A stretch of DNA of 53,371 nucleotides, taken from positions 1-53,371 of the IMG/VR virus record IMGVR_UViG_3300020473_000702. One strand, given 5' to 3'. The notes beneath the pieces were generated by a model. It was not told the DNA's origin, did no database searches, and saw only the letters and a list, made by a program, of their open reading frames with translations. The position numbers and the translations under genes are program-made. Shown piece after piece: positions 12,203-13,766 of the stretch (the first letter of the stretch is position 1; each line of letters begins with the position of its first letter). This stretch comes from a virus.

Positions 12203-12480
12203 AAACATTTAGAGACATTAAAAATCAAGCAGTAAGACAGAACTTCAGACAGAAGGAATGCTTCACTGAGGGACAGACTGTGATGAATGTTAACACTGGT
12301 ATCAAGGGGAAGATAATCCGCACTGGACCGAACTATGTTATTTGTGTTTCTGAAGCCCGAGAAATGTTTAGAGCTTGGGTCAGGGACATAAGAGAAGTCA
12401 ATGAAAGTATAAATAAACCAAGAAGAACAGCCTTTTTTACTCATGGACAAGCAAGCACCTACAACATCAGTGCAACATAA
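12199..12480 (+). CDS. Small unknown protein with GTG start (93 aa)
   Basis: The frame starts with GTG 12199, overlapping the stop of the gene before (GTGA). The product has a basic N-terminus, then GQTVMNVNTGIKGKIIRTG followed by YVICVS, a pattern similar to KOW/SH3-like barrels, and ends FFTHGQASTYNISAT. The 3' part contains a TATAAATA late box and the start of the next gene. Function is unknown; linkage places it in the late cassette. Confidence 0.75.
   Translation: MKTFRDIKNQAVRQNFRQKECFTEGQTVMNVNTGIKGKIIRTGPNYVICVSEAREMFRAWVRDIREVNESINKPRRTAFFTHGQASTYNISAT
12408..12415 (+). promoter_or_regulatory. Late promoter box TATAAATA
   Basis: An exact T4 late consensus TATAAATA lies inside the preceding gene, 28 bases ahead of ATG 12443. 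The spacing equals that of other late boxes in the window, so the charged protein is likely transcribed separately as well as by read-through. Confidence 0.75.
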
Positions 12481-13003
12481 TGATGATTATTCTAAAGCAC
12501 TAATCGAATCATATGCACAGTGGATGGATGGAGATACCTTCCAAGGAACTACCATCAAAGAGGAACCTGCTACTATTGAAACACCAATAGGTACTATACC
12601 TAAGCCTGATTTTGATAAGGAAACTATCCCTACTATTAAAGTGGTCAACACTGATGATGGTAGCACAAAGGATCCTAAGGCTAATGCTGGTGCACCTGAT
12701 AGCACAAAGATCAAGCAGTCACATGGTGCTGAGATAAAGAATAATGCTATTAGTGTTAAGAGAGAAGAGGTTGAAGTTGAGAAGAAGGCAACTAGAGAAG
12801 AATTAGAAGCTAAGTTAGAAGAGATTCTTACAGAACTTAGTGAAATGACTGAGACTACTTTCACTATAACTAAAGAGAGATGGGAGAAAGCAGCTGCAGA
12901 GAGAGAAGGCAAAGTAGTTGAAGAAGAAGCAGGATGTAGTACCAATGAGTCTAAGAAGCAAAAGACCATTGATAAAATAATGAGCTATTCTAGAAAAAAG
13001 TAG
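12443..13003 (+). CDS. Charged coiled-coil protein, zero-frame product (186 aa)
   Basis: The product starts MDKQAPTTSVQHNDDYSKAL, has a proline/threonine-rich disordered stretch, and then a strongly charged helical region (about residues 110-175) rich in Glu and Lys that should form a coiled coil. The zero frame stops at TAG 13001, directly after the heptamer A AAA AAG. A -1 shift there would add 49 residues. No family was recognised. It overlaps the gene before by 38 bases and has its own TATAAATA box upstream. Scaffold-like or nucleic-acid-associated roles are conceivable, but nothing shows this. Confidence 0.8.
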   Translation: MDKQAPTTSVQHNDDYSKALIESYAQWMDGDTFQGTTIKEEPATIETPIGTIPKPDFDKETIPTIKVVNTDDGSTKDPKANAGAPDSTKIKQSHGAEIKNNAISVKREEVEVEKKATREELEAKLEEILTELSEMTETTFTITKERWEKAAAEREGKVVEEEAGCSTNESKKQKTIDKIMSYSRKK

Positions 13004-13046
13004 AAGGGCTTGCACATGATAGATGGGGTCTAGAAGAAGGCAAGTC
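12994..13046 (+). promoter_or_regulatory. Candidate -1 programmed ribosomal frameshift signal
   Basis: A AAA AAG (12994-13000) lies in the correct frame register for tandem -1 slippage, as in E. coli dnaX, and is followed immediately by the zero-frame stop. After a 6-base spacer, GGCTTGC (13007-13013) pairs with GCAAGTC (13040-13046), a 7-pair stem with one G-U and a 26-base loop. The -1 frame has a stop at 12991, so it is open only from the slippery site onward. Confidence 0.65.
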
Positions 13047-13149
13047 AAAAGGAAAAAAGAAAAAGACTGTTGAGATCATGCCTCGTATTGACGATGGTAA
13101 AGATATGAAGAACCCAAAGAAAGGACCAGATATATACGTGAAGGGATAA
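13000..13149 (+). CDS. -1 frame extension of the charged protein (49 aa)
   Basis: After -1 slippage, translation continues VEGLAHDRWGLEEGKSKGK and ends VKG before TAA 13147-13149. The extension is lysine-rich with several KKG/KKK clusters, unlike the acidic parent, and looks coding because no start codon of its own with a ribosome site is present. The shifted product would be 235 residues (12443-13149). The alternative is an assembly or biological one-base indel in the A run. The stop codon is embedded in the late box of the next gene. Confidence 0.6.
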   Translation, partial: VEGLAHDRWGLEEGKSKGKKKKTVEIMPRIDDGKDMKNPKKGPDIYVKG

Positions 13150-13152
13150 ATA
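13145..13152 (+). promoter_or_regulatory. Late promoter box GATAAATA
   Basis: GATAAATA lies 20 bases before ATG 13173 and contains the TAA stop (13147-13149) of the -1 frame extension. Confidence 0.75.
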
Positions 13153-13172: not shown

Positions 13173-13766
13173 ATGACATTAGCAAAAGAGGCAATACTCG
13201 AAGCACTTAAGTGTTGTAGAGATGTGTATCCACATAAGCAAGACTTCCTAGTTAGTAGGAAGGTGGAAGGTCATACCATTCTTGCAGTTGAAGGAACAAA
13301 TGAGACTACAGACTGGATAACCAATCTGAAGTTTCTTATTAAACGTGACGATTGTCACAGAGGATTCAAGAACAATGCTAACAGGACACTAGCCGAGCTA
13401 GTGGTAGCATATGAAGGATTGGATCCTAAGAGAAAGCTTGTTATTGCAGGTCATTCTCTTGGTGGAGCAACCGCTACCTTAATTGCAGACTTGTTATGGG
13501 AGTCAGGCAATAAGAATGTAGCCCTAGTAACTGCTGGTTCTCCCAGACCAGGTGGACGTAGGTTAAGAAAGAGGATTAAAGATCTTGAACATCTTCGGTT
13601 TGTGCATGGTGATGACATTGTTCCAGGGACTCCTCCTTGGCTTGCTGGCTATGTACACACTCATCCAGTTATCAAACTAGAAGACGAGAAAGATACTCGT
13701 TTTGATGGAGTTGCTGACCATAATATAGGTGACTATTATGAAGCAGCTCTCAAATATTATAAATAA
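13173..13766 (+). CDS. Lipase-like alpha/beta hydrolase (class 3 lipase family)
   Basis: This 197-residue protein carries the nucleophile elbow GHSLGG (S95), followed by VTAGSPRPGG, HGDDIVPGTPPW (candidate Asp at 147 or 148) and ADHNIGDYY (His 183). This matches the class 3 lipase family. No signal peptide is visible. A late box 20 bases upstream implies late expression, so roles in cell-envelope or thylakoid lipid breakdown at lysis or in the virion are possible. The substrate is unknown. The gene ends inside the TATAAATA box of the next gene. Confidence 0.88.
   Translation: MTLAKEAILEALKCCRDVYPHKQDFLVSRKVEGHTILAVEGTNETTDWITNLKFLIKRDDCHRGFKNNANRTLAELVVAYEGLDPKRKLVIAGHSLGGATATLIADLLWESGNKNVALVTAGSPRPGGRRLRKRIKDLEHLRFVHGDDIVPGTPPWLAGYVHTHPVIKLEDEKDTRFDGVADHNIGDYYEAALKYYK
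13758..13765 (+). promoter_or_regulatory. Late promoter box TATAAATA
   Basis: An exact TATAAATA lies 39 bases before ATG 13805 and overlaps the stop codon TAA 13764-13766 of the lipase gene. Confidence 0.8.

Follow-up and report, generated by a model that had tools for sequence, protein, structure and literature searches.

A conserved A AAA AAG stop motif and a probable programmed -1 ribosomal frameshift in the S-PM2p145 gene family of T4-like cyanophages

The gene of the S-PM2p145 family (phrog_4359) studied here very probably ends in a dnaX-type programmed -1 ribosomal frameshift site, a reading to which we give, from sequence comparison, a probability of about 0.9. The window, a metagenome contig of 53,371 nucleotides from an IMG/VR virus record, is a fragment of a T4-like cyanophage. 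Its zero-frame ORF (positions 12443-13003, on the plus strand like the heptamer, stop, hairpin, tail and the two ATAAATA boxes at this locus) encodes 186 amino acids and closes with the codons AGA AAA AAG TAG: the slippery heptamer A AAA AAG is in register at 12994-13000 and the zero-frame stop TAG follows directly 3′ of it at 13001-13003. From 13000, the -1 frame continues for 49 codons (VEGLAHDRW...DIYVKG) to a stop at 13147-13149. A sequence-only reading of this stretch had pointed out the heptamer, the stop, a downstream stem and the 49-codon extension, and had taken them for a -1 frameshift signal. This description proved correct base for base, and the interpretation is supported by alignment with relatives, which have preserved heptamer, stop and stem together with coding in the -1 frame. 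A search of the literature outside subscription journals returned no earlier report of this frameshift in cyanophages.

The site and its conservation in the family

Taken alone, the site is uninformative. The pattern AAAAAAGTRR is seen once in the 53-kb window where 0.9 occurrences are expected by chance; we therefore rejected any claim of significance from the window itself, and the case rests on comparison. Wider searches yielded 100 distinct homologous gene ends, and in 69 of them A AAA AAG immediately precedes the zero-frame stop, these counts coming from related sequences and not from independent trials. The -1 frame is open in all 69, and the stop is TAA or TAG in 44 of them and TGA in 25. 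The motif ends the gene in each of sixteen IMG/VR relatives, down to a best-segment identity of 47%, as well as in the single-cell virus AG-345-P14 and in ten named cyanophages. The heptamer is preceded by GAA, AGA, TCA, GGA or GCA (encoding E, R, S, G or A), a codon whose last base is always A; the residue at this position thus drifts, whereas the final A does not. Moreover, none of the 442 internal Lys-Lys pairs in these genes is written A AAA AAG, compared with about 30 expected from codon use. Since no genome-wide avoidance of the heptamer was seen in S-PM2 (15 internal occurrences versus 19.5 expected), we claim this depletion for this gene family only. Judged by comparison, it is the conservation in 69 distinct gene ends that makes the site real.

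The sequence-only reading had also placed a -1 stop at 12991. This TAG (12991-12993) is present, but it is no part of the signal, as the -1 frame is open further upstream in relatives with TCA-AAA-AAG. One of the 100 gene ends (L129:1950-2831) is apparently broken; it has neither the normal heptamer end nor the ATG pattern described below, and its appearance suggests an indel within the gene on this contig.

The 7-pair stem and the 6-base spacer that had been described downstream of the heptamer are both there. The 5′ arm GGCTTGC (13007-13013) pairs with the 3′ arm GCAAGTC (13040-13046), with one G-U pair, and 6 nt, stop included, separate the heptamer from the stem. An inner helix at 13020-13032 (13020-13024 with 13028-13032), absent from that description, is also predicted. 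The fold of 13004-13055 has an energy of -13.1 kcal/mol (z = -3.8), and none of 200 dinucleotide shuffles was as low; across 54 distinct ends, the hairpin starts mostly 4-7 nt after the heptamer, with a mean z of -2.5. Among the relatives of the window, the stem exists in the unrelated sequence versions GGCTTGC/GCAAGTC, GGTCTTG/CAAGACC, AGTCTTG/CAAGACT and AGGTGGGCAA/TTGCTCATCT, with both pairing and spacing kept. Covariation was tested in a second group, for which 22 other distinct members were aligned without gaps. Two-sided compensatory changes occupied 20 cells, compared with 9.0 +/- 2.7 in shuffles (0/500), and slid versions of the alignment gave at most 12. At two loci, L016 and L030, the stem is weak and often matched by shuffles. 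Of 60 relatives, 29 have an upstream AGGAG, which mostly lies 8 or 11 nt before the heptamer; a Shine-Dalgarno stimulator of this kind about 10 nt upstream of the heptamer is absent from the window and is optional, not required. The window contains no tRNA genes, and S-PM2 is annotated with a tRNA-Lys TTT.

We propose that most ribosomes would read AAA AAG and stop at TAG, producing the 186-aa protein, and that the hairpin 6 nt downstream would hold a fraction of them. In this fraction, lysyl-tRNA would re-pair from A AAA AAG to AAA AAA, the stop would be missed and 49 more codons would be translated, yielding a protein of 235 aa whose C-terminal tail is basic. Slippage in the host, its efficiency, its tandem rather than P-site-only nature and the use of both isoforms are features that we infer. 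The zero-frame product has a pI of 5.0 and a net charge of -9, and the tail alone a pI of 9.5 and a net charge of +4. One acidic product and one with a basic tail had been anticipated; the tail is indeed basic, but its fusion to the zero-frame product is still acidic overall (pI 5.5).

The -1 tail and the alternatives to frameshifting

The substitution pattern indicates that the -1 tail evolves as a protein, under purifying selection. In the group of the window, pN/pS is 0.22 in the -1 frame versus 0.62 and 2.32 in the other two frames, and in two cyanophage groups it is 0.27 and 0.49, the -1 frame being the lowest each time. The tail has a weak match to phrog_11250, and a tblastn search with the tail alone against phages gave no match. 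The module KKKGLDGKACWKGY belongs to the -1 frame in L016, L018 and L019, where no start codon precedes it, and to the zero frame in S-RIM32 and others. In S-PM2, the gene S-PM2p146 (L034:3217-3510), like its equivalents in other named cyanophages, is annotated as a separate one whose GTG start lies a few codons inside the -1 tail. Present evidence makes S-PM2p146 the C-terminal part of the frameshift fusion. Annotations of these well-studied phages split or mis-start this gene, as at S-PM2p145/p146, so that a protein isoform would have been missed.

Of the alternatives, termination at TAG followed by a restart nearby, the tail then being a separate small protein, survives best, and we nevertheless regard it as improbable for the window. 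It has a clear precedent in a sister lineage. In 30 of the 100 gene ends, the homologous downstream ORF starts at an ATG at the stop (29 as ATGA and one, L261, as TAATG), and these relatives evidently make the tail in this way. They comprise S-RSM4, S-WAM2, ACG-2014e/h, S-H9-1 and two dozen metagenome relatives; their downstream protein carries the same VEVMP-type motif as the tails, and the downstream ORF of S-WAM2 matches phrog_11250, like the tails. Reinitiation is also possible in the 25 heptamer members with a GTGA end, in which the stop overlaps a GTG start. It is ruled out at the junction in the 44 heptamer members, including the window, that have TAA or TAG and no start codon overlapping the stop. 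Neither the window nor its nearest relatives have a start codon at the junction, and there is no start-stop coupling in the window, where the stop is TAG and the tail frame has no start codon before the ATG at 13078, 26 codons in; the residues encoded before this ATG are conserved as protein. Two members with different stops, TAA in L112 and TGA in L096, have kept both heptamer and stem, and reinitiation would give a slippery heptamer no reason for fixation.

Heptamer and ATG never occur together among the 100 gene ends. A quick maximum-likelihood tree, unrooted and built from 93 rows and 118 columns of the N-terminal region, places the two states on the two sides of one branch, with an SH-aLRT support of 100. 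In the sister lineage an ATG takes the place of the frameshift, so the downstream ORF can also exist as a protein of its own, and the fact that this lineage evidently makes the tail separately argues against the fusion being essential in all members. The ATGA relatives S-RSM4, S-WAM2 and ACG-2014e/h share with the window both ORFs, their -1 phase and their locus; they differ in that the downstream ORF has its own ATG and no heptamer, giving two proteins instead of one protein plus a fusion. The locus is a natural experiment in which the same coding parts are joined by a frameshift on one side of the branch and by a start-stop overlap on the other, and it allows a direct test of what is gained from a fixed-ratio fusion compared with two separate proteins.

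Slippage of the RNA polymerase, which would add or drop an A in the run and produce an altered mRNA translated normally into the fusion, is less probable still. All 69 heptamer members do have six A in a row (seven after GAA), but transcriptional slippage in bacteria has been described at stretches of 9 A or T (PMC5009743), and the conserved register, the hairpin and the upstream Shine-Dalgarno sequence act on ribosomes, not on the polymerase. Finally, the sequence-only reading had raised a one-base indel in the A run as the alternative. Such an error of sequencing or assembly, or a decayed gene, can be practically excluded despite the error-prone nature of homopolymer runs and the metagenomic origin of the contig, as the same run and stop recur in 69 distinct sequences from numerous independent assemblies of isolates and metagenomes, purifying selection acts on the tail and no relative with one uninterrupted frame was seen here.

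The gene, its promoters and its protein

The zero-frame ORF matches the phrog_4359 profile with an E-value of 5e-27, and its neighbourhood fits this assignment: a phrog_4808 gene (T4-GC 534 in S-PM2) precedes it, as in named cyanophages, where members of the S-PM2p145 family follow the small T4-GC 534 gene and stand shortly ahead of a head-protein gene. The S-PM2 locus is situated between the cytidyltransferase and head-protein genes. The next gene of the window (13173-13766) encodes an esterase/lipase-like protein (phrog_21992), and its DNA is about 78% identical to that of P-SSM2, in which the annotated neighbour before the esterase/lipase-like gene is a tRNA ligase and not the frameshift gene.

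The sequence ATAAATA, which we take to be the T4-type late promoter box, is located at 12409-12415, inside the upstream gene and 34 nt before the gene start, as a candidate late promoter. An NTAAATA box at most 45 nt upstream of the start was found in all 56 distinct family members checked, mostly at 34 nt. These boxes lend support to the earlier description of the protein as late. A second ATAAATA (13146-13152) overlaps the -1 stop and is a candidate late promoter of the next gene; NTAAATA lies at or beside this stop in 58 of 68 relatives. The zero-frame ORF and the -1 tail together look like a single late transcription unit. Throughout the window, ATAAATA occurs about 27-46 nt before gene starts, as candidate late promoters, at 12409, 13146, 13759, 21741, 30578, 36153, 42520 and 50629, and it is not over-represented in the window in total.

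The protein itself looks low-complexity and modular. A Pfam search with the window protein gave nothing above the cut-off (zinc-knuckle-like Pfam matches in the related locus L002 were also below it), and no similarity to tail assembly chaperones was found in Pfam or PHROGs. Short modules (KGLDGKACWKGY..., DGDGK..., KYERMVKHIKK...) lie upstream of the frameshift in some phages but downstream of it in others, and they also occur in other cyanophage proteins, giving the appearance of modular, shuffled tails; such -1 tails are found at L002:3887-4383, L016, L018 and L019. Because this protein has modules in common with a cyanophage cytidyltransferase family, and because S-SM1 virions were found to contain the T4-GC190 cytidylyltransferase (PMC3037559), our guess would be a late accessory virion or assembly protein.

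A second site and known recoding systems

A mechanical gene set of S-PM2 contains one further gene, S-PM2p156, that ends in A AAA AAG followed by a stop. It encodes a C39-like peptidase (Pfam E-value 2e-13), and its -1 frame contains a complete phage lysozyme of the GH24 type (E-value 1e-21); an 11-pair stem lies 5 nt downstream of the heptamer (L214:15534-16720, corresponding to S-PM2 115534-116720). A survey that included the IMG/VR loci L300-L379 found the heptamer with a lysozyme in the -1 frame in 39 of 57 distinct cyanophage endolysin gene ends, many of them with stems of 9-14 pairs. The peptidase and lysozyme domains are in one frame in ACG-2014f and L379, and the S-SRM01 endolysin has the heptamer plus a nearby ATGA. 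The 'putative lysin' S-PM2p157 is annotated only as the last part, and annotations would thus have missed a bifunctional lysis enzyme; a search of the literature outside subscription journals gave no report of this endolysin site. It is tempting, if rather speculative, to suggest that T4-like cyanophages share A AAA AAG with an immediate stop as a form of late-phase recoding in at least two unrelated genes, namely the S-PM2p145-family protein and the C39-peptidase/lysozyme endolysin, possibly with lysyl-tRNA or release-factor tuning during infection, and interchangeable with ATG coupling at the S-PM2p145 locus.

The site resembles that of Escherichia coli dnaX (tau/gamma) in the same A AAA AAG and in a downstream stem-loop at a similar distance, and many relatives, though not the window, share the upstream Shine-Dalgarno-like element. 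In E. coli dnaX, however, it is the shorter product that arises from the shift, with the stop one codon further on in the -1 frame, whereas in the cyanophage gene the shift would lead to the longer product and the zero-frame stop is directly after the heptamer. A zero-frame stop directly 3′ of the shift site is known from other frameshift genes (PMC5009743). In bacterial dnaX genes with this arrangement, for example in Chlorobium, the frameshift product is the long form, as predicted here, although the protein is unrelated (PMC5009743). Tail assembly chaperones (HK97-like and Vandenendeviridae; PMC3711429, PMC12846349) and T7 gene 10 encode other proteins, without any chaperone similarity in the cyanophage gene, and the cyanophage motif is of poly-A type as opposed to the poly-T type reported for T4-like and T7 cases. 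Nevertheless, they share with the cyanophage gene a -1 shift near the 3′ end, through which a fraction of the product gains a C-terminal extension, as we propose for the S-PM2p145 family.
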